Origin: Bacillota bacterium
GTDB lineage: Bacteria; Bacillota; SHA-98; UBA4971
DNA length: 64,000 nucleotides
Reading direction: 5' to 3'
NCBI GenBank assembly: GCA_024653485.1
Contig: JANLFY010000004.1
Span: 1 to 64,000, forward strand
A program made the translations under genes and the position numbers. Numbering within the stretch: the stretch's first letter is position 1; the number at the start of each line of letters is the position of its first letter. Positions 28,457 to 60,400 of the stretch are shown here, one piece after another. The notes under the pieces were generated by a model. The model did not search any database. It worked only from the letters and a program-made list of their open reading frames with translations, and had not been told where the DNA came from.

Positions 28457-28469
28457 TGGTTCGGCTGGT

Positions 28470-28550: not shown

Positions 28551-28624
28551 CGACGGTCGCGCCCAGCCGGGCACGACTGGAAGGGGCTTGACCGCGGGTC
28601 ACAGGCCGTCGGGAGGTGAGGGAG

Positions 28625-29557: not shown

Positions 29558-30620
29558 GCGACCGCTTCCACTAGTATCGTCCAAGATGCCCGCCGGGGAT
29601 GCAGGGGCAGGCGGCGAGAGGCTGTTTGCCCACGGCGATGCCGCGACGACGGGACGCCGAGTCACGCAGGCGGACAAACGAGGCGCGCAAGGCGGACCCG
29701 GCGGCCGGCTCAATGTCAGTCCGAGCACCAGGCGGGGTAGCCGTCGGATGCGCCTTGTTCGCAAGGCCATCACCCATTTGCTGGTGGTCATCGTAGGCCT
29801 CGCCATGTTTCTGCCATTCTACTGGATTCTGTCCGCGTCGGTGATGACGTACGAGGAGGTCACGGCCATACCTCCAAAGTGGATGCCGTCGACGCCTCAG
29901 TGGGGCAATTACGGCGCCGTCCTTCGGGACCCCAACGTGCCGCTGTTCAAGTACTTCAAGAACAGCTTCATCGTGTCTACGGCGGTCACCGCGGCGGTTC
30001 TCTTGACGAGCTCTCTGGCGGGGTATGCTCTCGCTAAGCTCAAGTTCCCAGGACGCGACGCCGTGTTCACTTTCACCCTCTCTACCATGATGTTCCCGGT
30101 GTTCCTGTTCCTGATACCCGTATACTACATCCTGAAACGCTTCCCGCTCCTCGGCGGGAATAACCTCTTCGGCATGGGAGGAACAGGGGCTCTTCAATCG
30201 TACGTGTCGCTCATCCTGCCGTTCGTTGTGAGCGCTTGGGGTATATTCCTGATGCGGCAGTTCATGATGACCATCCCTGACGAACTCATCGATGCTGCGA
30301 GGATAGATGGCGCCTCGGACCTCGGCATTTTCGGCAGGGTCATGATGCCGCTCGTCAAGCCCGCCCTGGCGACGCTGGCCATATTCACGTTCATCGGGCA
30401 ATGGAACTACTTCCTGTGGCCCATGATCGTTACCACGTCGGCCCCGCATCTCATGACTGTGCCAGTTGGCCTGAGGCTCATGGGCACGGCGTACAGCACG
30501 GCTGTCAACATGAACAAGCTCCTCGCGGCGACCGTATTGGCTATTGCCCCCTCGGTGTGCGTTTTCCTGGCGCTCCAACGCTACTACATCAAGGGATTCG
30601 TCTTGAGCGGGTTCAAGTGA
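29550..30620 (+). CDS. Sugar ABC transporter permease, MalG type, with N-terminal extension
   Basis: 356 residues. From about residue 67 it is an ordinary six-helix permease (AITHLLVVIVGLAMFLPFYWILSASVM; EAA loop ELIDAARIDGASDLGIFGRVMMPLVKPAL). The first 66 residues are hydrophilic, rich in Gly, Ala, Arg and Pro, unlike the family. ATG 29550 has a good GGAGGGG site 9 nt upstream, whereas the internal ATG 29748 has a poor one, so the extension is probably real. It overlaps the previous gene by 8 nt. Its partner ATPase is not in this operon. Confidence 0.9.
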   Translation: MSKRPLPLVSSKMPAGDAGAGGERLFAHGDAATTGRRVTQADKRGAQGGPGGRLNVSPSTRRGSRRMRLVRKAITHLLVVIVGLAMFLPFYWILSASVMTYEEVTAIPPKWMPSTPQWGNYGAVLRDPNVPLFKYFKNSFIVSTAVTAAVLLTSSLAGYALAKLKFPGRDAVFTFTLSTMMFPVFLFLIPVYYILKRFPLLGGNNLFGMGGTGALQSYVSLILPFVVSAWGIFLMRQFMMTIPDELIDAARIDGASDLGIFGRVMMPLVKPALATLAIFTFIGQWNYFLWPMIVTTSAPHLMTVPVGLRLMGTAYSTAVNMNKLLAATVLAIAPSVCVFLALQRYYIKGFVLSGFK

Positions 30621-30676
30621 ACCCACCGTGCGAACGAACTGGAGACCGTGTGACGAGGACGGGAGGAGGCACAGGG

Positions 30677-32923: not shown

Positions 32924-32942
32924 GACGGAGCGCAAGACGGAG

Positions 32943-33953
32943 ATGTCGCTCGAGACGGAGACTGCGCGCGGGCCGGGGACGGCGCGCAAGACAGCGGTGG
33001 GCGTTGACATCGGCGGCACCAAGGTTGCCTGCGGATTGGTCGACGATTCGGGCAAGGTCCTCGAGAGGCGCCGCGCCGCTATCGATTCAGGCGACGGCAC
33101 GGGAAAAGGACCCCTCAAACAGATAGCCGGGATGGTACGCGAGGTCGCGGGCGCGGCGCACAGCATGGGTGCTCAAGTGGCCAGTTGCGGTGTGGCGGTC
33201 CCCGCGGTCATCGATAGGCCGAGCGGCAAGGTGATCTGGGCGCCGAACATCGCCGGCTGGCGCGACTTTCCCCTCGGCGAGATGCTTCAGGAAGCGACGG
33301 GATTGCCGGTGCTATTGGACCACGACGGGCCTTGTGCGGTCTCGGGAGAACGGTGGATGGGCGCGGCACGAGGGTGCGACCACGTGGCGCTAGTCATCCT
33401 CGGTACCGGAGTGGGAGCCGGCTTCATCCTTGACGGTCGCGTGTACAGGGGTTCCCGAGGCATAGCGGGCGCTATGGGATGGTCGTGTCTAGAGCCAGGA
33501 GCTATCGACGATCCTGTCTTCCGCGAGAAGGGCTTCCTGGAGACCATGGCCGCAGGCCCCGGCATCGCCCGGCAACTGCGCCAAAGGATCGCGAGAGGGG
33601 AGAGGAGCATCGCGCTGGAGGTTGCGGGTGGCGACTTGCGTGCGGTCACCGCCGAGGTAGCATTCGAGTGTGCGGAAAGAGGGGACGAGACGGCTGGGCG
33701 GGTCATAGCGACCGTCGTGAATTACATCGGAATGGCCGTATCGAACCTGGTGAGCGCGCTGAACCCAGAAGTGGTTGTGCTGGGAGGCGGAGTTGGTCGC
33801 AGGCTGGGGCCGTACCTCGAGCAGATCCGCGCCGTCGTCGCTGCCACAGCCCAGCCCCAGGCTGCGAAGGCGATGAGAATCGTTTGCTCCGAGTTGGGTG
33901 ACGATGCGGGCGTGATAGGCGCCGCGAGGCTTGCCCTGGAGGCGTTCGGGTAG
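32943..33953 (+). CDS. Divergent ROK-family protein lacking zinc and sugar motifs
   Basis: 336 residues from ATG 32943. It keeps the ATP loop VDIGGTKVA and the catalytic Asp128 (LDHDGPCAV), but the ExGH sugar motif reads AMGW and the CxCGxxGCxE zinc motif is missing (WSCLEPGAIDDPVFREKGFLE instead, an unrelated stretch). Compare the complete ROK kinase at 23120. It may phosphorylate an unusual sugar or be catalytically weak. Start uncertain: TTG 32880 or GTG 32889 would overlap the GH42 gene; ATG 32943 has only a weak site. Likely cotranscribed with GH42. Confidence 0.8.
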   Translation: MSLETETARGPGTARKTAVGVDIGGTKVACGLVDDSGKVLERRRAAIDSGDGTGKGPLKQIAGMVREVAGAAHSMGAQVASCGVAVPAVIDRPSGKVIWAPNIAGWRDFPLGEMLQEATGLPVLLDHDGPCAVSGERWMGAARGCDHVALVILGTGVGAGFILDGRVYRGSRGIAGAMGWSCLEPGAIDDPVFREKGFLETMAAGPGIARQLRQRIARGERSIALEVAGGDLRAVTAEVAFECAERGDETAGRVIATVVNYIGMAVSNLVSALNPEVVVLGGGVGRRLGPYLEQIRAVVAATAQPQAAKAMRIVCSELGDDAGVIGAARLALEAFG

Positions 33954-34164
33954 GCGGTCTCCAGCGCGGGCTGGGCGCAAGAGGCGTCAGGGCGCGTTGT
34001 GGACGGGGGCGGGGCACGACGCACGCTTCGTCAGCGAATGGCATGCGCGGGATGGCATGCCCCATTCCAATTGAGCGGCGTGAGCGGCTCCGGCCGAGGA
34101 ACGGTCGGCTGTCCGCGGCCGTGCGGGCACTGAGAAACGTGGGTCTGCAAGACAGGAGGCAAAA

Positions 34165-34917
34165 ATGATGAGCGCGATCGCATACTTCGAAAGGATCCAA
34201 GAGATCGCTCACAGCATCAGAACGCACGAGATGCACAACATAGGGAAAGCTGCTGGACTGATGGCGGACTCCATCGGAAGCGGCCATCTCGTGCATCTCT
34301 TCGGGAGCGGGCACTCCGTCATCCCAGTCATGGATGTTTTCCCGCGCTACGGTAGTTTCGTGGGGTTTCATCCCTTGCTCGACCCCAGGCTCATGTGGTG
34401 CAACGTCGTGGGCCCTGGCGGCGCGAGAGAGCTTCTTTGGCTCGAGCGACAGGAGGGCTACGTTGCCACCTTCCTTCAAAGCTTCGAGTTTCACTCGCAG
34501 GACACTATGTGGGTCTTCTCCCATGGTGGGCTCAACGCTGCGCCGGTGGAGGCGGCTCTGTACGCGCGGGAGAGGGGCCTTCCCGTGGTGGCAGTTGTGT
34601 CTGGCGACAATCACAGGAAGGCGAGACCGACGCACTCTAGCGGCAAGAAACTCGGAGACCTGGCGGACGTGATGATCGACACCCACGTGCCGCTCGAGGA
34701 TGCGCTGGTACACGTGGACGGGCTCGACGTACCCGTGGCGGCCGGGTCCACCGTGGCTGCGGTGGCGATCTCGTGCGCGATCGTAGCGGAAGTCGCGAAG
34801 CTGCTCGCGGCGGCCGGGATCAAGCCTTCAACTTTCGTGTCCCCGAATGTGAGAGGCGTCGATGCGGACCACAACAAGGGAGTGTTTCAGGAGTACGAGA
34901 GACGAGTGCCAAGGTGA
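34165..34917 (+). CDS. SIS-domain protein (UPF0309-like)
   Basis: 250 residues. A single SIS fold: HLFGSGHSVIP is the phosphate-sugar loop, FSHGGLNAAPVEAALYARERGLPVVAVV the second. It resembles the UPF0309 / sugar-isomerase-domain proteins that accompany amino-sugar and ABC sugar operons. Reaction unknown; isomerisation or binding of a ketose/aldose phosphate is the family expectation. ATG 34165 has ACAGGAGG 6 nt upstream. Last gene of the second sugar locus, convergent with a glycosyltransferase. Confidence 0.8.
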   Translation: MMSAIAYFERIQEIAHSIRTHEMHNIGKAAGLMADSIGSGHLVHLFGSGHSVIPVMDVFPRYGSFVGFHPLLDPRLMWCNVVGPGGARELLWLERQEGYVATFLQSFEFHSQDTMWVFSHGGLNAAPVEAALYARERGLPVVAVVSGDNHRKARPTHSSGKKLGDLADVMIDTHVPLEDALVHVDGLDVPVAAGSTVAAVAISCAIVAEVAKLLAAAGIKPSTFVSPNVRGVDADHNKGVFQEYERRVPR

Positions 34918-38644: not shown

Positions 38645-39913
38645 CTACCGCGCGACCGGCTCCTTCGGGCCTGCCAACGGCTGGGTGTTGCGCCAAAAGT
38701 CCATGGCGAACACGGACAACACGCCCGCCATCGCACCTAGGACGCCTGCTATGGCCACGTTGAGCACCTTCCTCGGTCCTGAAGGTTCCACGGGCAAGGT
38801 GGCGGGCGCAGCTATCCCTATGGCGGAACTCACCAAGGCGCTCGCGTCCCGTCCCTCGAGGTTCTGTAACTTCGTCGCAAGATCGACCACTCGACCTTTG
38901 CTGACGCTTACTTCATCGGCCAGCCTTTCCTCGAGAGCCTCCTCTTCCATGAGCCTCGTCTTCAGCTCCGCGATCTCGGCTTCGAGCACCGGGATGGCTT
39001 TGCGGGCAGCGGCCAGTCGGGCCCTGGTCTCAGCGAGGCTCGCCCGTTTGCGAGCGACGTCCTCCAGCAACGACGTGTACGCGGGATTGAGCTGAACTGG
39101 CGCGAGGCTCCATGTTTCCGGGCCCGACGCTCCGTTGGTCTGCCCGCCCGAAGGCCGCTCCAGCGCCACCGTCCGCGGAATGGCTGAGAGCTGCTCCTCC
39201 AGAACTCTGAGGGAGTCCGATGCGGCGCGCTCCTCGCTCGTGAGCTGAGCGAACTCCCACCGGTAACTAGCCAGCTCGGCAGCCTTGGAGTTAATCTCCT
39301 GAGTGAGCAGGTCCGTTCCACCCGAGCTCCCCACGACCTCCTTGAGCCTCTCCAGCTTCTCTGAAACGGCTGCTTCTTGGTGGGCTAGCTCCGCAGAGAG
39401 CGCCTGCTTCCGAGAGGAGAGCCGCGCGGACACGAGGTCGGAGAGATAGCCCCTGTATGCCTCGACGATCGCTTCCGCCAAGGCCCTCGCGTTTTCAGGG
39501 ACGGGGTCTTTGACAGCGATCTCCACGAGCCTGTCGCTCTTGCTTGCGTCACCCGCCACTTTGGTAGTGACCTTCTTGGCGAGGGCAGCCGCGTCCAACG
39601 AGGTACTGCCGAGGGACCTTGCGGCCCGGTCGAGGACGATCGGGTCTCGCAACAGCCTGACGTGCGCTTGGGGGGTGCTTCCGATGATGCCGGTGATGAC
39701 AGGGTCTCCGAGCTCTGCTCCCACTTCTGTGGGAAGGTTCACGGTGAGGACAGTGGTGGACTCATACACCGGGTCGAGCAACAAGGAGCTTATCAGCCCC
39801 GCCGCTAACATAGCGCACAGGGTCACCGCGAGGACTACCCACCTTCCGCGCCAGAGGGCCTCAATGTACTGCCTCAGGTCTATCTCGTCTGTGTACCCGC
39901 CGTCTTGCGCCAT
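38645..39913 (-). CDS. Wzz-like polysaccharide co-polymerase (second copy)
   Basis: 422 residues. N-terminal EIDLRQYIEALWRGRWVVLAVTLCAMLAAGLISSLL gives the first membrane helix; a long periplasmic coiled-coil region follows (residues about 150-370); a second helix VLNVAIAGVLGAMAGVLSVFAMDFW ends the protein. This is the chain-length determinant (Wzz/GumC/CapA) plan without a kinase domain. ATG 39913 is chosen by homology; its ribosome site is weak and ATG 39994 is an alternative. Last gene of the minus-strand cluster. It differs from the copy at 44227 and may set a different chain length. Confidence 0.85.
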   Translation of the reverse strand: MAQDGGYTDEIDLRQYIEALWRGRWVVLAVTLCAMLAAGLISSLLLDPVYESTTVLTVNLPTEVGAELGDPVITGIIGSTPQAHVRLLRDPIVLDRAARSLGSTSLDAAALAKKVTTKVAGDASKSDRLVEIAVKDPVPENARALAEAIVEAYRGYLSDLVSARLSSRKQALSAELAHQEAAVSEKLERLKEVVGSSGGTDLLTQEINSKAAELASYRWEFAQLTSEERAASDSLRVLEEQLSAIPRTVALERPSGGQTNGASGPETWSLAPVQLNPAYTSLLEDVARKRASLAETRARLAAARKAIPVLEAEIAELKTRLMEEEALEERLADEVSVSKGRVVDLATKLQNLEGRDASALVSSAIGIAAPATLPVEPSGPRKVLNVAIAGVLGAMAGVLSVFAMDFWRNTQPLAGPKEPVAR

Positions 39914-40130
39914 CGCTGCACGGCACGAAATCCTGCCCTTTAGCGGGACAGGACAGCCGTGGCTTTCCCCCTCCTTCCTTTCTCGCCCAATCATGGGATC
40001 ATGACGGAGTATCACTACGGAGTGGCACTGTCCACAAAACAGGACATTCGCGCTGCAGGCTCGGATTCCTTCTTCCTGACCTGGACGAGGCCTTTCCAGC
40101 TGGATGGGACGAGGGGTGAGACAAGGCATA

Positions 40131-41276
40131 TCAGAACGTAACACGTCCCGTGACCATCACTCTGCTCGCCACACTCAGTCTCTCATCAAACGCGAACGCG
40201 ACGTCAGTACACATCCCGCCCAACTCAAGCCTTGCTCCCGCCGATCCACAAGGGCTCCTGTCGGGACGCAGGAAAACCGCTCCCGTTCCTACGAGCCCTG
40301 GAGCGATCTCGAGCTGGGCACCCAGTCCGAGCTGCCACGGTGCCGCGTGCGGAACGCCTGCTATGCCCCACGGGCCTTTGGCGCCAGATGGCTCAAGTGA
40401 GACGGTGACGGAACGAACCCGGGAGAGCGACGGGGGCATCACCGCCAGGGACATGGCCGTTCCTGTGCAAGCTCTCTCGCTCTTCGTCCACGGTCGGGAG
40501 GTCCCGCCCGACGCAATGGAGCCGTCCCACCTCATGTCGGCCAACACGTTCACCACGTCGACCCGGGCTGACACTTGTCCGAGTCGACCCGCGGCCAGTC
40601 GCGTAGACATCCCAAGGTCGAGGGCGTAGCCGCGTCCGCCAGCCAGAAGCGTCGTCTCTCCGCCGAATTCACTGGAGAAGCGACCTTCCAAGGATCCGTC
40701 GAGCACGTGAAGTCTCGCTTCCAAGATGAGGCCTCGGATCGGGATCGCTGCCTCCCCAACCCACGCTTGAATGGTCCGGATCTCTCCAGCTCGCTCTCGG
40801 TGCTCGGCCCAGCCTCGTGCCAGATCCAGTTCGGTTCTGGCCAGCCCGAACCTCACCGGACCGCCGGACGGGAACACGAGGTCCTTGACTCCCCAGCTCC
40901 TTCTGATTCCCACGAGGAAGTCGTAGTCACCGGCTCCCGCCCCGCGTATGAGGTCGAGACCGCTCGACCACGACGTTCCCTTGGTGCCTTCCGGCGACCA
41001 CGAACCGAACGAGACGACAAGGCTGCGAGCGCGGGCGCCGCACTCAAGACTCGGCCAGACTCCTGCCCCGCCCGCTGCGAGCTCGGACGCGGCAAGTGGC
41101 AGGTACCAGGCACCTGTGTTGATCCCAGCCAGCAGATCTCCGGGACCTGGCACGGTCTCCGCTGCGCAAGGCGCGGACCACACGACGAGGATCGCCGTCA
41201 GGACAAGAACAGAGGGTCCCAAGAAACGCAGGAGCAGCGCACTTCTCCCGGGGCGCGCTCTCTCAACCACAGGCAT
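40131..41276 (-). CDS. Secreted beta-barrel protein of the polysaccharide cluster
   Basis: 381 residues. Signal peptide after a charged N-terminus (LRFLGPSVLVLTAILVVWSAPCAAE). The mature sequence is strand-rich, with repeated Gly-aromatic patterns, and ends MVTGRVTF, a terminal Phe like outer-membrane barrels. No named family recognised; it could be a partner of the Wzi-like protein encoded next to it. ATG 41276 has AAAGGAG about 7 nt upstream. An outer-membrane location is inference from the C-terminus and context. Confidence 0.7.
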   Translation of the reverse strand: MPVVERARPGRSALLLRFLGPSVLVLTAILVVWSAPCAAETVPGPGDLLAGINTGAWYLPLAASELAAGGAGVWPSLECGARARSLVVSFGSWSPEGTKGTSWSSGLDLIRGAGAGDYDFLVGIRRSWGVKDLVFPSGGPVRFGLARTELDLARGWAEHRERAGEIRTIQAWVGEAAIPIRGLILEARLHVLDGSLEGRFSSEFGGETTLLAGGRGYALDLGMSTRLAAGRLGQVSARVDVVNVLADMRWDGSIASGGTSRPWTKSERACTGTAMSLAVMPPSLSRVRSVTVSLEPSGAKGPWGIAGVPHAAPWQLGLGAQLEIAPGLVGTGAVFLRPDRSPCGSAGARLELGGMCTDVAFAFDERLSVASRVMVTGRVTF

Positions 41277-41353
41277 GGTCTCTGCTCCTTTCGCGTTGTG
41301 CTGCGCATGAACATCCGCCGGCCGCCTGCATCGATTTGACGGCTGGCGTGATC

Positions 41354-42568
41354 TCACCGATTCCACATCAGCCTCATCGACAGGCGCACGCTGGCCTCAA
41401 CGGCTCTGGCGGATGGTACGTGGTCCGCATTTCCCAGGCTCTCGACCACGGCAGCGAACTCAATGGTGCCTCGGGGTGTCCCCGGAAGGACGCGCAGAGG
41501 CGCGCTCATTCCCGCTCTTGCCCAGAGACCGAGGCTCGCGCGCGTCTCGATCGTGCCCGAGAGGAACTCACGAGCTACCCCCTCCGAAGGATTCCACGCG
41601 ATCCCCAGGGCACCCTCGCCGTGACGCTCGTACCCGAGCCGGCCCGTTATTTCCATTTCTCCGAAGGGTATGGCTGCCCCGAGCCGCACGGGGCGAGTCA
41701 CGAAGACGTACAGCGCGTCCGCGTCCGGGCCGAGCGGGTGCCCGATTGGTTCGTCTTCCCGGACCACGTAAGTGTTCTCCGGGTTCTTATGGGAGTATAC
41801 GTAGTTATTGACGCGCACGTACTCTGCTGCGAAACGCCACGAGTCGGAGCCGGACGGCAGCTCGACCTGCACGCCGGCAAGCCCGGCAACCATGTACGGG
41901 ACCTTCCCTCGCGCGCTCGGTGCCCACGGGAAATCATCCGCCATGAACTCCCCATACACCTTCACGCCACTGCCTACTTCCACGCTTGCGTCAACGGCTG
42001 CGAGGACATTCGACCACCAGTCTTGGGACCTTTCGTCCACGATACTGAGGTGTTGGTCGAGGAAGTACGGGCAGCCGGGCAATAGGTGGTAGGGCTGAAG
42101 GCGGAATCCTGATGAAACGGCGCAAGCCTCAGACACCCCCACCTCCACACCCTCCGCAATCTGTCCCTCGAGACGGTGAGCGAGCAGCCATCTCCCGCGC
42201 GCGACATCTCGCGCCGCGATGAGCTGCGAGTAGCGAAGAGACCCGGCCTCAACGGAAAGGGCCAGCGCGTCCAACGGGGTGAATCCGGAGAGGAGGAGCG
42301 ATCCTGACAAGCCGTGCCCCCATTTTGGGGTCTGTCTTCCCAGTACGACAGCGCTCTCGGGCATCTTGCCAGCGAGGATATGCTCAACTGTAATGCTTGC
42401 CGCGTCAAGGGACAGGCTCGGCGAGTCGCGCGCGGAGTCCCAGGTCGCTTCGACTCCGATGGACGCGTTCCGCAGGAAAGGGGACGCACCCGCGTCGGCT
42501 GTCGACGCCGCGCCAAGTAGGCTTCCCGCTACGACGAAGACGGCAATCACACGTGACAACCCAGGCAC
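41354..42568 (-). CDS. Capsule assembly Wzi-like outer-membrane protein
   Basis: 404 residues. Signal peptide PGLSRVIAVFVVAGSLLGAASTADA. The mature part shows features I associate with the Wzi family: QTPKWGHGLSGSLLLSG, LLAHRLEGQIAEGVEVGVSEA, the KVYGEFMADDFPW motif, and a chain of barrel strands. Wzi is an outer-membrane lectin that anchors capsule. C-terminus is LMWNR instead of Phe. GTG 42568 is chosen (AAAGGGCGG upstream); TTG 42574 is possible; the long upstream frame is antisense-like and non-homologous. It links this Firmicutes-type cluster to an outer membrane. Confidence 0.75.
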   Translation of the reverse strand: MPGLSRVIAVFVVAGSLLGAASTADAGASPFLRNASIGVEATWDSARDSPSLSLDAASITVEHILAGKMPESAVVLGRQTPKWGHGLSGSLLLSGFTPLDALALSVEAGSLRYSQLIAARDVARGRWLLAHRLEGQIAEGVEVGVSEACAVSSGFRLQPYHLLPGCPYFLDQHLSIVDERSQDWWSNVLAAVDASVEVGSGVKVYGEFMADDFPWAPSARGKVPYMVAGLAGVQVELPSGSDSWRFAAEYVRVNNYVYSHKNPENTYVVREDEPIGHPLGPDADALYVFVTRPVRLGAAIPFGEMEITGRLGYERHGEGALGIAWNPSEGVAREFLSGTIETRASLGLWARAGMSAPLRVLPGTPRGTIEFAAVVESLGNADHVPSARAVEASVRLSMRLMWNR

Positions 42569-42594
42569 TCTCAAGCCGCCCTTTCTGTCTCGGA

Positions 42595-43413
42595 CTACCC
42601 GCGCACCACGCCGAACACGAACCATCTCCTCGCCGAGTACCGCTCCGGGGTCTCCAGCCTCACACTCTCTCCAAGGACCATAGCCTGAGGGACATCCTTT
42701 GCGGCGCGCGTGGCACCTTCCCGACCTAGCAGCCTCGATACCACCGCAAACGCCTGGTCGAGCCTGCACGGCCTGGCGCCGGTGGGTGAGTGCCCGTCGC
42801 TCGCCACCACATGTGCAAGCCCATGTCCAAGAAGGATCTTCGCTACCTTCCCTATCGACCTTCCGAAGGCGCCTGTGAGGCTTCCGGCGTTCACCTGGCC
42901 TATCGCGCCCGCCCTCACCAACCGATACATCCGGTTCGGGTCCTTCAGGACGTCTGCGCACCGCTCGGGATGGGCGATCACCGGAGTGTAACCTGCGCTC
43001 GCGAGTTCGAATACCACCTTCTCGGCGTACTCCGGAATCTGCTGGAACGGCAGCTCAACGAGGACGTACCGGCCTGAGTCCCCGATGGTCAGGACTTCGC
43101 CGCACGCCAGGAGGCGCGGGAGGTGAAGGTCCATCGCCGTCTCCATCCCTGGCAACACTCTTACGGGTATGCCCGAGGACTCCAGGGCGGCTGTGAGGGC
43201 GCGAGCGCGGCTTCGCACGACCTCGGATGCACCTCCTGTGTTTGCGCTTGCGAAGTCCATGTGGGGAGTCGCTACCAGAAGGCTGGTGCCGCTCTCTTGG
43301 GCGACCCGTGCCATGGCAAGAGCATCCTCAAGGCTCTGGGCGCCATCATCCATTCCGGGGAGTATGTGCGTGTGAATGTCTACGATGCCCTCAACGGCGC
43401 TCTCACGTCTCAA
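42595..43413 (-). CDS. CpsB/YwqE-type tyrosine-protein phosphatase
   Basis: 272 residues, PHP-fold metal-dependent phosphatase. Metal ligands visible in DIHTHILPGMDDG, ATPHMD, GMETAMDL, IAHPERC and VASDGHSP. In Firmicutes this enzyme dephosphorylates the Tyr-rich tail of the CpsD/CapB kinase and controls polysaccharide length. It lies immediately after the kinase gene, 7 nt apart, as in Gram-positive capsule operons. The TTG start at 43413 has GGGTGA upstream. Confidence 0.92.
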   Translation of the reverse strand: MRRESAVEGIVDIHTHILPGMDDGAQSLEDALAMARVAQESGTSLLVATPHMDFASANTGGASEVVRSRARALTAALESSGIPVRVLPGMETAMDLHLPRLLACGEVLTIGDSGRYVLVELPFQQIPEYAEKVVFELASAGYTPVIAHPERCADVLKDPNRMYRLVRAGAIGQVNAGSLTGAFGRSIGKVAKILLGHGLAHVVASDGHSPTGARPCRLDQAFAVVSRLLGREGATRAAKDVPQAMVLGESVRLETPERYSARRWFVFGVVRG

Positions 43414-43420: not shown

Positions 43421-44176
43421 TCACCCGCCGCCGGCCGTGTTTCCGTTGACAGCCGCTGTCAGCTCCTCGTCGGAGAACTCCCCGCCCGACTCACCCTCAT
43501 AGTAATAGTAGTAGTAATAGCCGTATCCGTGTCCGGGCCTCACCTGGTTGAGCACGACCCCAAGGAGCCTCGAGCGCGCTCCCAAGAGGAGTTGTTTCGC
43601 CCTCATAGCTGCGTCTTTCGCCGTCACTCCGAGCCTCAAGACAAGAAGCACGCCGTCCAGCTTGGGTGCGAGAACGATGGCATCGGTGACCGCCATCACA
43701 GGGGGCGCGTCATATATCACGAGGTCGGCCTCGGAAGAAAGCGTCCCGACCAACGCACTCATCATGCTGGATCCCAAGAGCTCCGAAGGGTTGGGAGGGA
43801 TGGGGCCGCTCGTGATGAGGCTCAGTCTTGGAACAAACGTATTCTGGTAGATATCGGGCATTGTGCCCCTTACTAGGCCCGTCGTGAGCCCCGTGACGTT
43901 TGGGAGCGAGAACAAGTCGTGTTGCACGGGCCTACGCATGTCCGCGTCCACCAGGATCACCCGCCGCCCCGCCTGGGCGAGCGAGATCGCAAGGTTGGCC
44001 GCCACCGTGCTCTTGCCCTCCGAAGGCCCGGCGCTCGTAACCAGCATCGAGCGCACAGGCCTATCGGGCGACACGAATTCGAGGTTCGTCCGGAGGGTGC
44101 GAAACGCCTCTGACACCGGAGACCTCGGATCGTGGTACACGATGAGGCTTCTGTGACGATTCTTCGCCTGAGACAA
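43421..44176 (-). CDS. CpsD/CapB-type tyrosine kinase (BY-kinase), separate polypeptide
   Basis: 251 residues. Walker A SAGPSEGKST, Walker A' VILVDADMRRP and Walker B LVIYDAPP define a bacterial tyrosine kinase. The C-terminus has a cluster of seven consecutive Tyr with flanking Gly (GYGYYYYYYYEG), the autophosphorylation tail. It lacks the transmembrane adaptor half, which is encoded by the upstream gene at 44227, as in Firmicutes; Gram-negative BY-kinases are usually fused. It regulates polysaccharide polymerisation and export. Start TTG. Confidence 0.93.
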   Translation of the reverse strand: MSQAKNRHRSLIVYHDPRSPVSEAFRTLRTNLEFVSPDRPVRSMLVTSAGPSEGKSTVAANLAISLAQAGRRVILVDADMRRPVQHDLFSLPNVTGLTTGLVRGTMPDIYQNTFVPRLSLITSGPIPPNPSELLGSSMMSALVGTLSSEADLVIYDAPPVMAVTDAIVLAPKLDGVLLVLRLGVTAKDAAMRAKQLLLGARSRLLGVVLNQVRPGHGYGYYYYYYYEGESGGEFSDEELTAAVNGNTAGGG

Positions 44177-44226: not shown

Positions 44227-45684
44227 CTAGGAAACGTGGGCTTCTGCGTGCCTCGAGCGCCGTCGTCCCGACCGCTTGCGACGGAACTTTCGCATGTCGG
44301 GCACCACGCCGAGCACGGGCAGCTCGAGGAGCCGCTCGACTTCCTCCTGGCTCTTGAAGGATGTATCCACGTGCTCGACGATGAACGCGACCCCTACCGC
44401 AACGAATAGTCCCAGAAACGCTGCGACAGCGGTGTTCAGTAGCTTCCTCGGTTTGGTAGGCTTCTCGGGCACGACCGCGCCGTCTATTACGTACACGTCA
44501 GACACGTTCATGGCCTCGGTTATGCGCATTTCCTCGTACTTCGAACGAAGCATGACGTATATCTCTTCATCCACTCGCTGCTCTCTCACGAGTCGAGCAA
44601 CTTCGACCTCCCTGTCAGGTATCGCCGCGAGCTTCTCCTCCGCCTCGAGCAACATCACGCGAAGCGCTTCCTGCTTCGCTTCCAACCCCACTATGAGGGC
44701 CTCGTTCTCCACTAGTTGCGTGCGAAGCTCCTGATAAAGCGGGTTCAGCGATCTAGTCTGAGATCCGATCACGTCGCCCACTTCCTGGGAGATCTTGGCC
44801 TTCACCTCGGCTATCTGCGCCCTCAGCGCTATGACCGTCGGATGATTGTCGGTGTATCGCTCCAGCGCCCCGGCAAGCTCCGTCTCGAGATCGGACAGAC
44901 GAATCCTGTATTGCTGTAGGAGAGGGTTACTTACCAGCATCGTCGAAGTGACGAGCGTGGGATCGGCGGACTGGAGGCTCTTTTCCATCTCCCGCCTTGC
45001 AGCCACGGCCGCTCTGAGCTCGACCTGCGCAGCGGCGAGTTCCCTCTCGAGGTGAGCAATTCTGTCTATCTGCGCCTTGGTTTCAGACGACGGCTCGACG
45101 ACGAGGTTTGACTTCTTGAACTCAAGCAACGCCTCTTCGGCTCTCTCAAGCGATTCTTCAGAGATCGAAAGCTGCTGCGCGATGAACTCCTTTGCGGCGC
45201 GCGCCGACTCCTGGTTCAGCCTCTGGCTATGCTCCTTGAAGACCTCTATGAGCGCGTTCAGAAAGGCAGCAGCTTTCTCGGGGTCATCCGACTCAACGGA
45301 GAGCCTCGCCACGTCCGTTCCCTGAACCTGCTGGACTGAAAGACCTCTCTGCCACAGTGCCACCTGCTCGGAGGACACGTCCTCGAACCAGCCCAAACGA
45401 GCCAGGGCAGATTCCACTATGGTCCGGCTCTTCAGGAACTCCATGTAATTCCTGATGTCATTCCCGGATGAGCCCGCTATGTCCTCGATAAAGGGCATCG
45501 TTCCCATCGGGTTGTCCGTTCGGACCATTATCGTAGAGGTTGCCTGGTAGATCTTGGTCATTTGGGAACTAACCACGTACGCTGTCAACGCGCTGGTCGC
45601 CACGAGAACAAGGATGAGCAACTTCCTCCTGGCCAGCACTCTCAAGTATTCGATGAGGTCTACTTCCTGCTCGAGTTGGTCCAT
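44227..45684 (-). CDS. Wzz/CapA-like polysaccharide co-polymerase with GNVR motif
   Basis: 485 residues. EVDLIEYLRVLARRKLLILVLVATSALTAYVV is the first helix; a long coiled-coil periplasmic part follows; a PEKPTKPRKLLNTAVAAFLGLFVAVGVAFIVEHVD region forms the second helix with its Pro-rich lead. A GNVR-type segment precedes it (PDREVEVARLVREQRVDEEIYVMLRSKYEE). It is the membrane partner that activates the CpsD-like kinase encoded next. The C-terminal tail is Arg-rich and cytosolic. ATG start. The two Wzz-like genes in this cluster are not close copies. Confidence 0.9.
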   Translation of the reverse strand: MDQLEQEVDLIEYLRVLARRKLLILVLVATSALTAYVVSSQMTKIYQATSTIMVRTDNPMGTMPFIEDIAGSSGNDIRNYMEFLKSRTIVESALARLGWFEDVSSEQVALWQRGLSVQQVQGTDVARLSVESDDPEKAAAFLNALIEVFKEHSQRLNQESARAAKEFIAQQLSISEESLERAEEALLEFKKSNLVVEPSSETKAQIDRIAHLERELAAAQVELRAAVAARREMEKSLQSADPTLVTSTMLVSNPLLQQYRIRLSDLETELAGALERYTDNHPTVIALRAQIAEVKAKISQEVGDVIGSQTRSLNPLYQELRTQLVENEALIVGLEAKQEALRVMLLEAEEKLAAIPDREVEVARLVREQRVDEEIYVMLRSKYEEMRITEAMNVSDVYVIDGAVVPEKPTKPRKLLNTAVAAFLGLFVAVGVAFIVEHVDTSFKSQEEVERLLELPVLGVVPDMRKFRRKRSGRRRSRHAEAHVS

Positions 45685-45720: not shown

Positions 45721-48700
45721 CTACCGTGCAAGAAGGTCCTTGACGAGCTTCAGCCCTGACAGGAACGAGAACACCGTGTCCCACTCGATCTTTGACGCGG
45801 CAGGGACGTACACTATGTCTCCGCCTGCCACGGGCGGGTTTTCATCTGCTCTGCCGGTGAAGAAGAGGTTGTCCTGTCCGAGTGAGACCTCTTCGCCTGC
45901 GGCTATCCGGCCGTCCCTGAAGATGCAGACGGACTCCAAGGCCGCCCGTTTGGTGGGACCACCTGCCAATCCTAGAGCATCCATGAGCTTGGCACTATCG
46001 CGGATCTTGTAAACACCGGGCCTTGCCACTTCACCGACGACAACCACCTCACGCAGGGCCTTGGGTACGAAGATGGTGTCTCGATCCGATATGGTCCGGT
46101 TCGCACGCGGGTCGGAGCCCGTCAGGATCTCATTCGCGTTGAGGAGAAGGACGCTGACCCCTTCCTTGGACGATGAAGACTCATCCCCAGACTGGGAACG
46201 GGTCGTGAGCGTCACCGACGAGCCGTCGGCATCGTCGGTGAGACCTCCAGCCGCCGCCAGAGCGTCAGCAACGGAGCTTCCCGCCTTCAGGTAATACAAG
46301 CCGGGCTTAGCCACTTCTCCTACGACGTGCACAGCTATGGACCTCGGCACATAGATGACCTCGCCCCCGCGCAAGATCCACGCGGAAGCGTCGTGAGCCT
46401 TTCCCGTCCGGCGCAAGTCGAACTCGAGAGTGTCGGAAGAGCCGTCAGCACCACGAACGGTGACCTTGACGGCGTGATCGTCGCCCATTTGGGTGATTCC
46501 ACCTGCCATCGCCAAAGCCTCGAGCAGGGTTGTCTCCTTGCGCACGCGGTATACTCCGGGTTTCGCCACTTCGCCGAGGACGGACACCTGGCGGGCGCTC
46601 TCTGGCACGAAGACAGTGTCACCGTTGTGAACCAGGATACTGCTGTCGAGGCTGTCCACGTCCACCATCATGACCTTGGCGCTGCCGTCCTGGGCCTTAG
46701 TCGACAGCCTTATGGCACGCTCATCAGCCGTTTCAGTGACGCCGCCGGCCATCGCCAGCGCCTCGAGGAGGGTCGTACCTTCCCGAATGCGGTACACGCC
46801 TGGTCGCGCCACCTGCCCCAGGACGGAGACCTCACGCACCAGGTCAGGCACGAAGATGATGTCACCGTCGCGAAGAGGCACGTTTCGGTCATCGGAGCCG
46901 GCCATTATGGACGTTATGTTCACAGTCTGCACGCTCTGCCCGCCTGCGCTGTCGGTCTGTCTCGTGAGGGTGGCCAGCGAGGGATCGCCGTCCTCGCTCA
47001 CGCCTCCTGCACGCGACACGGCGTCCATGAACTTTGCCGTGGCTCTCAAGGAGTATGTTCCCGGGGCTCTCACCTTGCCTAGTACCATTACGGATATCGA
47101 TTTCGGTACATACAGCACGTCGCCGTTCTTCACCAGGCAGTTGTCCTCGCCTCCGCCCGCCGCCTGGAGCCTATCCAAATCGATGGTGCGGCGCATCTCA
47201 CCGTCGGGATGCTTGCTGGTGAGCACCGCGCTCGTCGCGTCGCCCTCCGGTCGCACACCGCCCGCCAGCGCCAGCACGTCGAGGAGTCTCGTTTCCTTGT
47301 GGATCTTGTACGTCCCGGGCCGGGTCACCTCCCCGAGCACGGAAACCTCCTGGATGAGCTCTGGGATTGAGATTATGTCTTGGTCCTGAAGGATCACGTT
47401 GTCCTCGGGCTTGGCTCCCTTCAAGATGGCCTCGAGGTCGAGGACCTTTGCGTATGGGCCTGCGGCTCCGCCGGTGCCTGTTCCAGGGACGGTGCCGGGG
47501 CTGGCGTGCGCTCGTGACGCCGTATCGGCATCGCCACTAGACGTGCGAGTTAGGGAAACGCGGGACGTATCCGCTTGTTCGGTCGGTCCGCCTGCCCGGG
47601 CGATAGCGTCCACGAGGCGGCTTCGCACTCGCAAACGGTACGTGCCTGGGGACTTCACCTGCCCAAGAACCTGGACCTCGATGGCCCTCGGGACGTACAC
47701 CATGTCGCCGGGCCGCAGCCTCAACGTGCCCCCCAGGTTCGACGCGGACGGGTTCTGGCTGGGCGAATCTTCCAAAGCGCCAAGGTCCACCTCAAACACC
47801 TGCGTGGTCGCGTCCGAGGTCCGCGTGACCTGGATATGGCTGATGTCTCCGTTCAAGCCCGGTCCGCCGGCCGCAGCTATGACGTCGAAGACCCTGGTGT
47901 CGGGGCCGATGGGGTAGATGCCGGGCTTCTCGACTTCACCAAGCACGGAGACTGTGCGCACAGCCTCGGGAACGTGAATCACGTCCCCATCAGCCAACGC
48001 TACATTCTCATCACCGCCAGGAACAAGTATGGCATATGCGAAGTTTGCGGTCCGTGCGGTCTCCCCGCGCGACACCGAAACCCGGCCGGCGTCGCCCTCC
48101 GGGAGAATCCCGCCCGCTCTGGCGATGGCGTCAGTGAGCCGCGCTCCGCGTTCCAGGTAATACGTTCCCGGAGACCGGACCATCCCCATGACCCTGACCG
48201 CAAGCGCCTTCGGAACGAAGACGGTGTCCCCGTCCAGAAGGAAGCACGACGAAGGATGCATCGCACCTGCAAGGACGGCGCCAAGGTCCACTGTCACCGG
48301 CCCGCCGGCGGTGCCCTGGTTGGTCACGAACTCCGGCCTGTGAGAGATCCTGATGCAAGTCGTATCTGCGTCCGGCGTCTCGCCCCCAGCGGCCGCGATG
48401 GCGTCGATCAGGCTGGGCGTTTCGCGGAAGCTGAACGTGCCGGGCGAGCGCACGGCTCCGATGACGTTCACCCGGACCAGCCGCCACTCACGCACCGACA
48501 CGGTCACCTTGGGGTTCTTCAGGTAGTATGACAACTTGTCGGTGAGGACCTCTTGAAGCGCGGGAACCGTGAGCCCAGCCGCGGTCACTTCCTCTATCAA
48601 GCTGGTGAACGATATCTTGCCGTCTTCTCTCACCTTCACCGCCGCTGACAGGTCCTCGTAACCCCAAACGGTTATGTCGAGCACATCCCCTGCGGAGACG

Positions 48701-48849
48701 ACGTAGCTTCCGGGAGAACCTTGGGCTGACACGGGGCCTGTTTGGGCCGAGGCAGGCCGTACGGACGTCATGGCAAGCACGCTCAAGATCGCAGGTATGA
48801 TAGCCGGCAAGATCGACGCGCGGAAAACCGAATGAAACCGTCTCATCAT
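45721..48849 (-). CDS. Giant polysaccharide export protein with ten SLBB repeats
   Basis: 1042 residues from ATG 48849, about three times a Wza-type protein. Order: signal peptide (FHSVFRASILPAIIPAILSVLA, cleavage after ASA); polysaccharide export domain (GSYVVSAGDVLDITVWGYEDLS); then ten SLBB units of about 80-100 residues, each starting like VSVLGEVxxPGxY and containing LxDAxAxAGG; finally IEWDTVFSFLSGLKLVKDLLAR, possibly an amphipathic helix like the one Wza uses in the outer membrane. No lipobox Cys. The ATG 48849 start puts the signal at the N-terminus; 48846 is equivalent and 48951 would add 34 odd residues. First gene of the cluster. The function would be a conduit for polysaccharide across the periplasm and outer membrane. 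Confidence 0.88.
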   Translation of the reverse strand: MMRRFHSVFRASILPAIIPAILSVLAMTSVRPASAQTGPVSAQGSPGSYVVSAGDVLDITVWGYEDLSAAVKVREDGKISFTSLIEEVTAAGLTVPALQEVLTDKLSYYLKNPKVTVSVREWRLVRVNVIGAVRSPGTFSFRETPSLIDAIAAAGGETPDADTTCIRISHRPEFVTNQGTAGGPVTVDLGAVLAGAMHPSSCFLLDGDTVFVPKALAVRVMGMVRSPGTYYLERGARLTDAIARAGGILPEGDAGRVSVSRGETARTANFAYAILVPGGDENVALADGDVIHVPEAVRTVSVLGEVEKPGIYPIGPDTRVFDVIAAAGGPGLNGDISHIQVTRTSDATTQVFEVDLGALEDSPSQNPSASNLGGTLRLRPGDMVYVPRAIEVQVLGQVKSPGTYRLRVRSRLVDAIARAGGPTEQADTSRVSLTRTSSGDADTASRAHASPGTVPGTGTGGAAGPYAKVLDLEAILKGAKPEDNVILQDQDIISIPELIQEVSVLGEVTRPGTYKIHKETRLLDVLALAGGVRPEGDATSAVLTSKHPDGEMRRTIDLDRLQAAGGGEDNCLVKNGDVLYVPKSISVMVLGKVRAPGTYSLRATAKFMDAVSRAGGVSEDGDPSLATLTRQTDSAGGQSVQTVNITSIMAGSDDRNVPLRDGDIIFVPDLVREVSVLGQVARPGVYRIREGTTLLEALAMAGGVTETADERAIRLSTKAQDGSAKVMMVDVDSLDSSILVHNGDTVFVPESARQVSVLGEVAKPGVYRVRKETTLLEALAMAGGITQMGDDHAVKVTVRGADGSSDTLEFDLRRTGKAHDASAWILRGGEVIYVPRSIAVHVVGEVAKPGLYYLKAGSSVADALAAAGGLTDDADGSSVTLTTRSQSGDESSSSKEGVSVLLLNANEILTGSDPRANRTISDRDTIFVPKALREVVVVGEVARPGVYKIRDSAKLMDALGLAGGPTKRAALESVCIFRDGRIAAGEEVSLGQDNLFFTGRADENPPVAGGDIVYVPAASKIEWDTVFSFLSGLKLVKDLLAR

Positions 48850-48977
48850 GGGCCTTGAACACGTCACCTTTCCGATCCTTCCTGTGGTCGCCGGGACGGC
48901 GCGCCCTCCCGGTGACTCTCGTATGGTCCAATTCGACTCCTTCCACGACATTCCTTTCTTGGGAAGATGATTTCCTA

Positions 48978-49230: not shown

Positions 49231-51189
49231 GTGACGCGTGGAGTGCGTAGGACCATCCTGGTGAGCTGTGACATCGCGTGCTGTCTCGCGAGCATCCTAA
49301 TTGCGCTGCTCGTCCGCTTCGAGTTCAACCCGTCGCGGGCGTTACCGTATGTCGCGATGATCGCTCAGCGGTTGCCCGCGTTGCTCTTGGTGCGCATCGC
49401 AGCGTACACAGCGTTCGGACTATACAACAGACTGTGGGAGTTCGCAAGCGTTCGAGAGCTCGTAGCGATCGCCAAGGCCGGCACCGTAGCTTCCGTCGGC
49501 GACTTTATCTTGCTCCACATTATCGAGGGGCCGGGCTTTCCTCGGAGCGCGACCCTCCTCATGTGGATATTCAATATATGTCTTTGTGGGGGGGTCCGTC
49601 TCCTCGCCCGCCTGAGAAGGGAGTGGGTCCTAGCCGCAAGGGCAGGCCAGCGCGTGGGGCGCGACAGCCGGGCGGATTCGGCCTCGACAATAGAGCCACC
49701 GAGCCCTCGGTGGGAGGCCGGCCGGCTCACGCGCGCTCTCATCGTGGGAGCGGGCGAGGCGGGCGTGATGGCGGCGAAGGAGCTCAGGACACATCCCGAG
49801 CTCGGCTATGATGTGGTAGGGTTCGTAGACGACGACCTATCGAAACAGGGGTACATGTTGGCCGACCTGCGCGTGCTGGGCACGCGGAAGGACCTCGCGG
49901 CCCTTGTGGCCAGGCACGACGTGGATGACATCATAATAGCGATGCCTTCGGCGCCGGGACGTGTGGTGAAGGAGATCGTGGCTGCGTGCGAGGGGCTCGG
50001 GACCAGAGTGAAGACGCTTCCCGGTGTGTACGAGCTCATCGACGGCAAGGTTGACGCAAGCCACATTCGGGACGTCCAGATAGAGGACCTTCTCAGGCGC
50101 GAGCAGATCAAGGTGGACCTCGCGCAGATCGGCAGCTACCTAAGTGGGCGGAGAGTGCTCGTGACCGGAGCAGGAGGCTCCATAGGCCGAGAGCTCTGCC
50201 GACAGGTGGCCAGGTTCGAGCCGGAGAGCCTCGTGCTGCTTGGGCATGCAGAGAACGATATCTACGAAATAGATCTCGAGCTCAGAGAGACGTTCCCTGG
50301 CCTGAGGACTGTGCCGGTCATCGGAGACATCAGGGACGCGGCGCGAATGGAGGGCGTGTTCGGGCGGCAGGAGCCGAACGTCGTCTTCCATGCTGCGGCG
50401 CACAAGCACGTCCCGCTCATGGAGGTGAATCCCGAGGAGGCCATCACCAACAACGTCTTCGGCACGTGGAACGTGGCGACTGCCGCCGACCGGCACGGCG
50501 CGTCCAGGTTCGTGCTCATTTCCACGGACAAGGCAGTGGAACCAGTGAGCGTCATGGGAAGCACAAAACGCGCCGCTGAATTGATCGTTCAGGCCCTGGA
50601 CAAGCACAGCAAGACGAAGTTCATCGCGGTACGATTCGGGAACGTCCTCGGCAGCAGGGGAAGCGTGATTCCTCTCTTCAAACGGCAAATTGAGGCGGGA
50701 GGCCCCATAACGATCACCCACCCCGACATGACGCGCTACTTCATGACGATCCCCGAGGCCGTTCAGCTGGTCATTCAGGCGGCGGCCATGGGGGAAGGCG
50801 GGGAAGTATTCGTCCTAGACATGGGTGAGCCCGTCCGCATAGTGGATTTGGCCCGCGACCTGGTGCGGCTGTCCGGTCTCGACCCAGATCGCGACATAGA
50901 GATGAAGTTCACGGGGGTGCGTCCGGGGGAGAAGCTGTTTGAGGAACTCCTGACAGCCGAGGAAGGGACTGTGGCCACGTGCCACGAGCGGGTATTCGTG
51001 GCCAAGAGCTCGGCGGCTCTAGACGGGAGCATCCAGGAATTCCTGGAAACGTGCCGCGAGCTTGCCGCCGGGGGCGAGACCGGCGCGGCTCGGTTCGTAG
51101 ATTACGTGCGAGAGCTGACGCACTCGAGAGGAGGGGGGCGAGGAACGCAACACGGAGTGTCCTCTCTGGCCGCCGGCGGGTGTACGTAG
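49231..51189 (+). CDS. CapD/FlaA1/WbpM-type nucleotide-sugar dehydratase/epimerase
   Basis: 652 residues. The N-terminus has about four membrane helices; a first Rossmann region follows (ALIVGAGEAGVMAAKEL, CoA-binding-like), then the SDR catalytic domain with VLVTGAGGSIGRELCRQ from about residue 308, HAAAHKHVPLMEVNP, and the atypical catalytic segment STDKAVEPVSVMGSTKR in place of YxxxK. Such enzymes are 4,6-dehydratases acting on UDP-GlcNAc or related sugars at the start of capsule or glycan sugar synthesis. GTG start with GGAGAGTGAAG upstream. Divergent from the export cluster, hence probably its sugar supplier. Confidence 0.92.
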   Translation: MTRGVRRTILVSCDIACCLASILIALLVRFEFNPSRALPYVAMIAQRLPALLLVRIAAYTAFGLYNRLWEFASVRELVAIAKAGTVASVGDFILLHIIEGPGFPRSATLLMWIFNICLCGGVRLLARLRREWVLAARAGQRVGRDSRADSASTIEPPSPRWEAGRLTRALIVGAGEAGVMAAKELRTHPELGYDVVGFVDDDLSKQGYMLADLRVLGTRKDLAALVARHDVDDIIIAMPSAPGRVVKEIVAACEGLGTRVKTLPGVYELIDGKVDASHIRDVQIEDLLRREQIKVDLAQIGSYLSGRRVLVTGAGGSIGRELCRQVARFEPESLVLLGHAENDIYEIDLELRETFPGLRTVPVIGDIRDAARMEGVFGRQEPNVVFHAAAHKHVPLMEVNPEEAITNNVFGTWNVATAADRHGASRFVLISTDKAVEPVSVMGSTKRAAELIVQALDKHSKTKFIAVRFGNVLGSRGSVIPLFKRQIEAGGPITITHPDMTRYFMTIPEAVQLVIQAAAMGEGGEVFVLDMGEPVRIVDLARDLVRLSGLDPDRDIEMKFTGVRPGEKLFEELLTAEEGTVATCHERVFVAKSSAALDGSIQEFLETCRELAAGGETGAARFVDYVRELTHSRGGGRGTQHGVSSLAAGGCT

Positions 51190-53192: not shown

Positions 53193-53307
53193 GCTCTTAT
53201 CTAGAGAGGCGGAGGGACTGGCCCGATGAAGCCCGGCAACCGGCGACGGGAGACCCGCCTGCACGGTGCCAATTCCTGCAGAACTTTCCGTTCTGGGAGA
53301 TGAGAGA
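53193..53307 (+). promoter_or_regulatory. SAM-I riboswitch (S-box)
   Basis: All conserved blocks are present in order: CTCTTATCTAGAGAGG (P1/P2), GGAGGGACTGGCCC, GATGAAGCCCGGCAACC, the P3 arm, GGTGCCAATTCCTGCAG, and GGGAGATGAGAG closing P1. Binding of S-adenosylmethionine should favour the terminator that follows and shut off metK. Confidence 0.97.
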
Positions 53308-53311: not shown

Positions 53312-53345
53312 ACGCCTCTTCCCGAACGAGGAAGGGGCGTTTTTG
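53312..53345 (+). terminator. Expression-platform terminator of the SAM-I riboswitch
   Basis: ACGCCTCTTCC (53312-53322) pairs with GGAAGGGGCGT (53330-53340), one G-T pair, followed by five T residues. Confidence 0.93.
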
Positions 53346-53603
53346 TGTTGTGTTGCCCGCGGGCCGGGACGCTTCCGTATCCGCTCCGGTGCCCTCGGGT
53401 CATGGGGTGGAACCGCCGCGCCCCCGCGGGCTGGTCTTGGGCGATCGATGGGCGAACCGGTGTGTGAAGCGCGGCACAGGCTTAGCTGGCAGCGTGCCGA
53501 TCGGCACGGGCCTCTACAGAGTGTGCTGCGCGGGGATGATATAGTTTGCGAGCTCGCGCATTCTCACATAGAGCTCGCTGCGTACGGAAAGGAGAGTGCT
53601 TCC
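53346..53603 (+). other. Long untranslated leader before metK
   Basis: 258 nt between the riboswitch terminator and the metK start, with no credible gene. It contains a perfect 16-bp palindrome, CGTGCCGA/TCGGCACG (53493-53508), and a possible second -10 TATAGT at about 53540. The ribosome site GGAAAGGAG lies just before the start. Confidence 0.5.
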
Positions 53604-54827
53604 ATGGCTGAATCAACCGAGGGCTTCCAGACCAAGTCGAGGAGACTGGTAACCTCAGAGTCGGTGACAGAGGGCCACCCTGACAAGCTTTGCGACAAGA
53701 TCGCCGACTCCGTGCTGGACGCGATTCTGAGGGAAGACGCAGACGCCCGGGTAGCATGCGAGGTAGCCGCGACGACGGGGCTGGTCATCGTCATCGGCGA
53801 GGTCACTACCTCGTGCTACGTCGAGATCTCCGAAATCGTCCGCAACACGGTGCGGGAGATCGGATACACGAGGGCGAAGTACGGTTTCGATGCCGACACG
53901 TGCGGTGTCATCACATCCATCCACGAGCAATCCGCGGACATCGCCATGGGTGTGGACAACTCGCTCGAGGCAAGACAGCTCCTGAACGCGGGCGTTGCGG
54001 ACGGTTTCGAGCACTTGGGCGCGGGAGATCAGGGGCTGATGTATGGTTTCGCCACTCGCGAGACACCGGAACTCATGCCGCTGCCGATAATGCTCGCTCA
54101 TAAACTGGCGCGGCGCTTAGCGGACGTTCGGAAGAAGGAGATCGTGGAATGGCTGCGTCCCGACGGCAAGACCCAGGTCACTGTGGAGTACGATGGAGAC
54201 ACGCCTGTGAGGGTGGATGCGGTCGTGATATCCGCCCAGCATCATCCGGAAGTGGACTACGACACGTTGAGAAGGGAGATCATCGAGAAGGTGATACACC
54301 ACGTCATTCCTCCTTCCCTCCTCGACGAGCGGACCAGGTTCTTCGTGAACAACACCGGCAGGTTCGTGGTGGGCGGTCCACACGGTGACTCGGGACTCAC
54401 CGGGCGGAAAATCATCGTGGATACATACGGAGGCGCGGCACGCCACGGCGGAGGAGCGTTCTCGGGAAAGGACCCAACCAAGGTGGATAGGTCCGCGTCT
54501 TACGCGTTGAGGTGGGTGGCGAAGAACATCGTTGCGGCAGGTATCGCCGACAAGTGTGAGGTACAGGCATCTTATGTAATCGGCTCGTCTCGCCCGGTGT
54601 CGGTGGGTGTCGAGACTTTCGGCACGGGCAAGATCAGCGACGACCGCATCCTGGACCTCATCCGCAAGCACTTTGACTTGCGGCCGGCTGCGATAATAGA
54701 CAGGCTGGACCTACGCAGACCGATATATAGCCCAGTAGCCGCATACGGCCATTTCGGCAGGGCTGACCTGGACCTGCCTTGGGAGAGGCTGGACAAGGCG
54801 AGCGACCTAAGGGCGGATGCGTTCTGA
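53604..54827 (+). CDS. metK: S-adenosylmethionine synthetase
   Basis: 407 residues, family length. Makes S-adenosylmethionine from methionine and ATP. Seen: [20 protein letters not shown] (ATP and methionine site), [12 protein letters not shown] (the GAGDQG hexapeptide) and [16 protein letters not shown] (the P-loop-like signature). ATG 53604 with GGAAAGGAG about 8 nt upstream; the longer frame from 53343 covers the leader and is not coding. Controlled by the SAM-I riboswitch, giving product feedback. Confidence 0.97.
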
Positions 54828-58224: not shown

Positions 58225-58302
58225 GACTGATAGGCAGGGCCTGCCATCGGTGGTAATTTTCTAGACAGGAATCGAGTGTTTCTTACAACCGAAAACGTTC
58301 TC

Positions 58303-58393
58303 CCGACAAAGGCAAACCCGTCGAAAGGCGGGGACGCAAAGCCACGGGTCTAAAGCCAGGAGGGGTTCTGGCCATGATAGCCGGGTTGCCGAA
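58303..58393 (+). promoter_or_regulatory. c-di-GMP-I riboswitch (GEMM)
   Basis: Conserved blocks: GGCAAACC (58311-58318), a GAAA tetraloop, GGGACGCAAAGCC (58330-58342), CGGGTCTAAA tetraloop-receptor segment, a variable arm, and AGCCGGGTTGCC ending at 58390. P1 forms from GGCAA (58311-58315) and TTGCC (58386-58390). It stands about 230 nt before the first Flp pilin gene and is oriented with it. Confidence 0.95.
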
Positions 58394-58407
58394 GAGAAGG
58401 GACTTTT

Positions 58408-60347: not shown

Positions 60348-60400
60348 CGTCCACTCCGAGTCGGGCGAACGGACGAACTGACGAGGAGGTGGCCGGGCCG

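Follow-up and report, generated by a model that had tools for sequence, protein, structure and literature searches.

Wza-like proteins usually have one or two ring-forming units, and a gene that encodes ten raises the question of what such an array would build and in what kind of cell. The gene lies at 45721–48849 on the minus strand of the window, the stretch of 64,000 nucleotides of Bacillota DNA that was analysed (contig JANLFY010000004.1 of assembly GCA_024653485.1). It encodes an OPX (Wza-type) polysaccharide export protein of 1042 aa, read as a single open frame from a start at 48849. A longer in-frame start is available at 48951, but the start at 48849 is favoured because of the signal peptide and of conservation. 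Residues 1–35 (48745–48849) form a Sec type I signal peptide as judged by reading the sequence, with a hydrophobic segment at residue 12 and the ending ...RPASA before QTG; the lipobox cysteine is absent from it. The Poly_export domain (PF02563; the PES, or D1 of Wza) follows at residues 45–119 (48493–48717, E 8.1e-21) and is the predicted docking point for the co-polymerase.

The remainder of the protein is almost entirely repeat. Pfam SLBB (PF10531) matches ten stretches with E 3.9e-125, SLBB_2 also matches ten, and in a whole-genome profile search all ten SLBB stretches are individually above the Pfam curated cut-off. The motif [VI]xGxVxxPGx[YF] occurs exactly ten times at a spacing of 81–110 residues. 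Profiles and motif together delimit unit 1 (48202–48474), unit 2 (47956–48201), unit 3 (47680–47955), unit 4 (47350–47679, with a long loop insert), unit 5 (47095–47349), unit 6 (46834–47094), unit 7 (46591–46833), unit 8 (46336–46590), unit 9 (46051–46335) and the terminal unit 10 (45796–46050), all on the minus strand. Unit 10 has its own signature, GGPTxRAxLE...ENPxxxGGDIVYVP, which is also seen in relatives, and it is followed by a conserved C-terminal tail of 24 residues (45724–45795; xEWDxVFSFLSGLKLxKDLxxR) that alignment and a structure model predict to be helical. Several units have long variable loops while the linkers are short. Pairwise identity among the ten units is 28–47%, and a search for alternating unit types within the protein gave no significant periodicity. 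As far as these counts and alignments go, the ten-unit repeat is far beyond chance. The original prediction of a signal peptide, one export domain and ten SLBB units, for which a profile search was to find no fewer than about six, is thus confirmed by the Pfam profiles, the motif count and the alignment of the repeats. Other matches to the protein were set aside. The EpsE equivalog score is the sum of nine stretches of a repeat protein, and passing its cut-off therefore means little; the JmjC, LpxI_N and cupin matches were rejected as repeat artefacts. Further SLBB matches in the genome fall in frames of other lengths, one of which encodes a ComEA-like protein.

Comparison with solved structures places the protein next to Wza, which is the top match of a profile search (E about 1e-34). 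When a profile is built from the last unit together with the tail, the tail falls on the first part of the outer-membrane (D4) helix of Wza, and the two have a tryptophan in common. A Pfam search at E up to 10 matches neither Wza_C (PF18412) nor GfcC (PF06251) in the protein. Hydrophobicity of the tail is only mild and its amphipathicity is not significant, the hydrophobic moment being no better than that of shuffles. The full-length AlphaFold2 monomer model (mean pLDDT 54, pTM 0.29) was discarded for geometry. For the last three units the model (pLDDT 78) has three beta-grasp domains and, at modest confidence, a 19-residue terminal helix. Foldseek with this model finds Wza chains first (E 1e-12), with a whole superposition of 19 Å rmsd, so that a Wza-like inter-unit geometry is unconfirmed. 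What the models confirm is the predicted Wza fold at the level of the single unit.

The genes around the array are those of an export machine. The OPX gene is the first of a minus-strand polysaccharide-export run. It is followed by a co-polymerase (44227–45684; Wzz and GNVR, with two TM segments flanking ~377 periplasmic residues) and a separate bacterial tyrosine autokinase of the Wzc/CpsD type with a C-terminal tyrosine cluster (43421–44176; TIGR01007), the two partners expected to be encoded with an OPX protein. The next gene, for a Wzi-like outer-membrane beta-barrel protein (41354–42961, minus strand; PF14052 at 6.3e-8, above cut-off), puts a barrel that may act as a porin beside the OPX gene, as in the composite OPX/beta-barrel (Wzp) arrangement. 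The PF14052 match recurs in 9 of 11 homologues; a profile of the protein found no match among solved structures, and its true start is probably later, near residue 130. A protein of no family follows (40131–41366, minus strand). It has a signal peptide, ends in a phenylalanine (...VMVTGRVTF), is 47–55% conserved in sister species and is possibly a second, new outer-membrane beta-barrel. Profile searches identify the product of 38645–40144 (minus strand) as a second co-polymerase (Wzz; weak GNVR), also probably with a later true start; it shares the operon with the first, and at this position such a gene was seen only among close relatives of the window's genus.

Upstream and divergent lies a CapD/PseB-type nucleotide-sugar dehydratase (49231–51189, plus strand; Polysacc_synt_2 by profile searches), which is syntenic in many relatives. 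Sister species have the operon genes in the same order, and the set of OPX protein, co-polymerase and kinase is widely kept in the phylum. Elsewhere in the genome there are a Wzy_C protein and a weak candidate flippase; an initiating PF02397 transferase was not found in the genome search. The window also holds, all on the plus strand, a sugar-uptake cluster (27131–34917) with an ABC transporter, a GH42 beta-galactosidase, a ROK-family protein and a SIS-domain protein, and a SAM riboswitch (53194–53306) immediately upstream of metK (53343–54827). A c-di-GMP-I riboswitch (58302–58394) stands just upstream of a cluster of Tad/Flp pilus genes, whose members include TadE/G-like at 60389 and RcpC/CpaB at 61496, which would place second-messenger control of pili ~10 kb from the export operon.

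A Wza-type conduit presupposes an outer membrane. The genome carries genes for an Omp85 of the BamA type and for LpxC, from which an outer membrane is to be expected in this cell. The same association is found across the phylum. In a sample of 399 Bacillota genomes, with Poly_export above cut-off defining an OPX genome, Omp85 is present in 57 of 58 OPX genomes and in 45 of the 341 without OPX; the direction is plain, although the Fisher p of 1.5e-39 overstates the evidence since the genomes are kin by descent. The sole OPX genome without Omp85 is a draft. Close homologues in monoderm bacteria, which would have spoken against the original prediction, were not met in this sample. Export operon, BamA, LpxC and the OPX/Omp85 association together uphold the assignment to a Wza-type protein of a diderm Bacillota lineage. 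The relatives that can be named are assemblies from uncultivated bacteria, filed as 'Bacillota bacterium' or Firmicutes, e.g. UBA6811, MAG-64 and UBA4981. Those without LpxC (genome G015, families f56 and f63) have 7–19 units compared with 1–16 in those with LpxC, a weaker lead at p 0.005, not corrected for descent. Omp85-positive, LpxC-negative diderm Bacillota with such high SLBB counts (7–19) are G015, G079, G151, G180, G117 and G164.

Across the OPX genes of diderm Bacillota, the number of SLBB units ranges from 1 to 19. In the window's genus the gene is present in five species, of which four have ten units (one of them eleven by a looser profile and ten by the first) and the fifth has nine. 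Complete copies in the next genus, g2, have eight; G015 has 13, G275 has 16, and UBA5389 has 19 in a protein of 1869 aa (L069:8246–13852). Nearly all units have one-to-one counterparts in sister species. Comparison of units identifies those that are missing elsewhere: the nine-unit gene is without unit 7, and the eight-unit genes are without units 2 and 7. In the 19-unit gene, units 4–7 are 89–94% identical to units 9–12, which by sequence comparison is the mark of a recent five-unit block duplication (period five); unit arrays of other relatives have periods of two or three. The last-unit signature and the tail are common to proteins of 2 to 19 units. As read from the alignments, the ends are fixed, with the Poly_export start on one side and the last unit and tail on the other, and the interior changes by units or blocks.

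Draft assemblies can miscount repeats, and single counts from uncultivated genomes carry some risk; the count of ten is safe because sister species agree. Two closed genomes of one family, G379 and G204, have about nine units. In G379 the frame is intact, whereas G204 has its long OPX array over two overlapping frames (L176:5261–7953), possibly a frameshift or a sequencing error; to judge by the closed genomes and high G+C, these two may belong to the cultivated Geochordaceae (PMC11456536). Long arrays of 16–17 or more units in the Verrucomicrobiota MAG JAKQKQ were excluded. The contigs concerned (L067, L068 and L070 of JAKQKQ01) are 79–85% identical in DNA to the Bacillota genome UBA5389, so that they were probably mis-binned; among Verrucomicrobiota genomes drawn for comparison, the long frames checked have at most 7 units.

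The length of a full stack can be estimated from published dimensions. In E. coli, Wza and Wzc form a continuous channel of 360 Å, of which 140 Å is the share of Wza, with D1 touching Wzc (PMC12881504). Poly_export with one SLBB measures 62 Å (PMC9603273), and the two values give ~30 Å per ring. With the periplasmic part of the co-polymerase taken as 130–165 Å (the upper value from PMC9603273, the lower assumed), the computed span of co-polymerase plus a full stack is about 460–500 Å for ten units and about 730–765 Å for nineteen. Measured periplasms range, with one exception, from 210 to 442 Å (PMC9603273). The full ten-unit stack with its co-polymerase would exceed most of these, and a fully stacked 19-unit protein is hard to fit in a normal periplasm. 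Compensation by a shorter co-polymerase was considered and rejected, its length having no correlation with unit number (rho -0.02, 27 genomes). From the computed spans and the constant co-polymerase, it follows that either the envelopes are deep or the rings are incompletely stacked.

Based on these observations, we propose that the ten-unit protein is probably the periplasmic conduit of a Wzx/Wzy-type export machine, built of stacked rings with fixed ends and a variable interior. Several OPX copies would lie side by side to form the rings. The Poly_export end would dock on the inner-membrane co-polymerase, by analogy with Wza-Wzc, and the ten SLBB units would stack as consecutive rings towards the outer membrane, which the terminal unit and short helix would engage. 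The Wzi-like barrel of the operon may serve as exit porin or surface anchor, and the number of interior rings, altered by unit loss, gain and block duplication, would set the tube length. Directly supported in this scheme are the domain make-up, the operon, the outer-membrane genes, the fixed ends, the variable count, the block duplication and the Wza fold of the units; we infer that the copies form an oligomer, that the rings stack and in which orientation, that the barrel is contacted and that length is important to the cell.

A ring conduit is suggested by PF02563 with ten SLBB units, by the Wza profile match and by Wza as the best PDB match of the three-unit model; an export machine by the partner genes of the operon (co-polymerase, kinase, Wzi-like barrel), which relatives also have, and by the Wzy_C protein elsewhere in the genome; and the envelope that it spans by BamA, LpxC and the OPX/Omp85 association. 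Its outer-membrane end is suggested by the conservation of terminal unit and tail irrespective of unit number, and by the match of the tail to the start of the D4 helix. The proposal is weakened by the undetected Wza_C and mild hydrophobicity of the tail, by the poor full-length model and the 19 Å rmsd of the three-unit model, by the PF02397 transferase not found in the genome, and by the 730–765 Å that 19 units would need, together with the published finding that OPX length and periplasm thickness have no correlation (PMC9603273).

This last finding can also be read as pointing to a different architecture, in which Wza-like rings are formed by the first and the last unit only. The additional units would then be a flexible or coiled string, binding polymer or peptidoglycan and holding a short pore to the co-polymerase, and unit number would set no tube length. 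The long variable loops, the leap of unit counts from 1 to 19 with no compensation by the co-polymerase, and a predicted inter-unit geometry that does not reproduce Wza all agree with a string. However, the units match Wza-type SLBB domains that form rings, nearly all are individually recognisable from species to species, and their linkers are short with a regular spacing of 81–110 residues, and we consider the string unlikely. The count could also be neutral, left behind by recombination among DNA units that resemble one another and with no functional meaning, as the recent five-unit duplication in the 19-unit relative and the different numbers among related genera might suggest. This is more improbable still, since ten one-to-one units at 70–75% identity persist in four of the five gene-bearing species of the window's genus and eight in complete copies of g2; a count so long stable, with units so diverged, argues for selection on each unit.

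Much closer to our proposal is a conduit confined to the periplasm, whose tail docks onto the Wzi-like (or the second) barrel as the exit porin, as in myxobacterial OPX/barrel systems. It is compatible with the ring stack and departs from our proposal only at the outer membrane. A tail of 24 residues compared with 35 in Wza, the undetected Wza_C and the lack of a lipid anchor are in keeping with it, as are the barrel in the operon, kept in many relatives, and the barrels near many OPX genes (PMC9603273). On the other hand, alignment places the tail on the beginning of the Wza membrane helix, a 19-residue helix is predicted in it, and many relatives with the same tail are without a Wzi-like gene in the stretch examined. 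We regard docking onto a barrel as a serious possibility, if not quite an even one.

The stacked conduit has to be placed among known OPX proteins. The original prediction knew of no described export channel of this form, a claim that does not survive the 2022 census, in which OPX proteins with 1–14 SLBB domains are already catalogued (PMC9603273); ten units are therefore an extreme case of a known kind. The protein begins with PF02563 followed by at least one PF10531 (ten here), as OPX proteins do, and its host has the BamA-type Omp85 and LpxC genes expected of an outer-membrane bacterium. Class 1, defined as Poly_export, 1–14 SLBB and Wza_C (PMC9603273), agrees in a Poly_export domain followed by many SLBB units and in a range that includes ten, although PF18412 is undetected here and the tail nevertheless aligns with the start of Wza D4; Class 1 members are mostly lipoproteins with a median of 378 aa, and the 19-unit UBA5389 relative is outside the range (PMC9603273). 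Class 3 comprises Poly_export and 1–7 SLBB without Wza_C or GfcC (PMC9603273), e.g. WzaX/S/B with Wzp porins. Neither domain is detected by Pfam here, a barrel gene is nearby, and the signal peptide carries no lipid anchor, a feature of about 30% of Class 3 (PMC9603273), but ten units exceed the published range and the tail is related to Wza D4. GfcC, the mark of Class 2, is absent at the same E limit; KpsD (Class 2B) is alike in its type I signal peptide and short C-terminal helix of about 25 residues, and differs in its GfcC domain and fewer SLBB units. E. coli Wza itself (PDB 2J58, 9r60) shares the Poly_export domain, tandem SLBB units of the same fold, co-polymerase and tyrosine kinase partners, and a C-terminal segment homologous at its start. 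In contrast to Wza with its two SLBB units, the window's protein has ten, no lipid anchor, a C-terminal segment of about 24 residues unrecognised as Wza_C, a kinase that is a separate chain, and a host in the Bacillota.

What is new is one export gene with 1 to 19 units, fixed ends, a variable interior and a co-polymerase without length compensation; a design of this kind with block duplication was not met in the open-licence papers that the search brought up. Rather tentatively, the SLBB array might be regarded as an evolvable ruler, in which fixed docking ends and 1 to 19 rings give tubes matched to unusually deep envelopes. If so, tube length would be a trait changed in evolution by ring duplication. 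For most OPX proteins the passage of polysaccharide from one membrane to the other is unsettled, since many do not have the length to bridge the gap. The opposite case is found here, where the same operon has 1 to 19 rings and its co-polymerase keeps a constant size. Should the rings stack, this lineage would be a natural length series for asking whether the conduit is continuous and how tube length relates to envelope depth.
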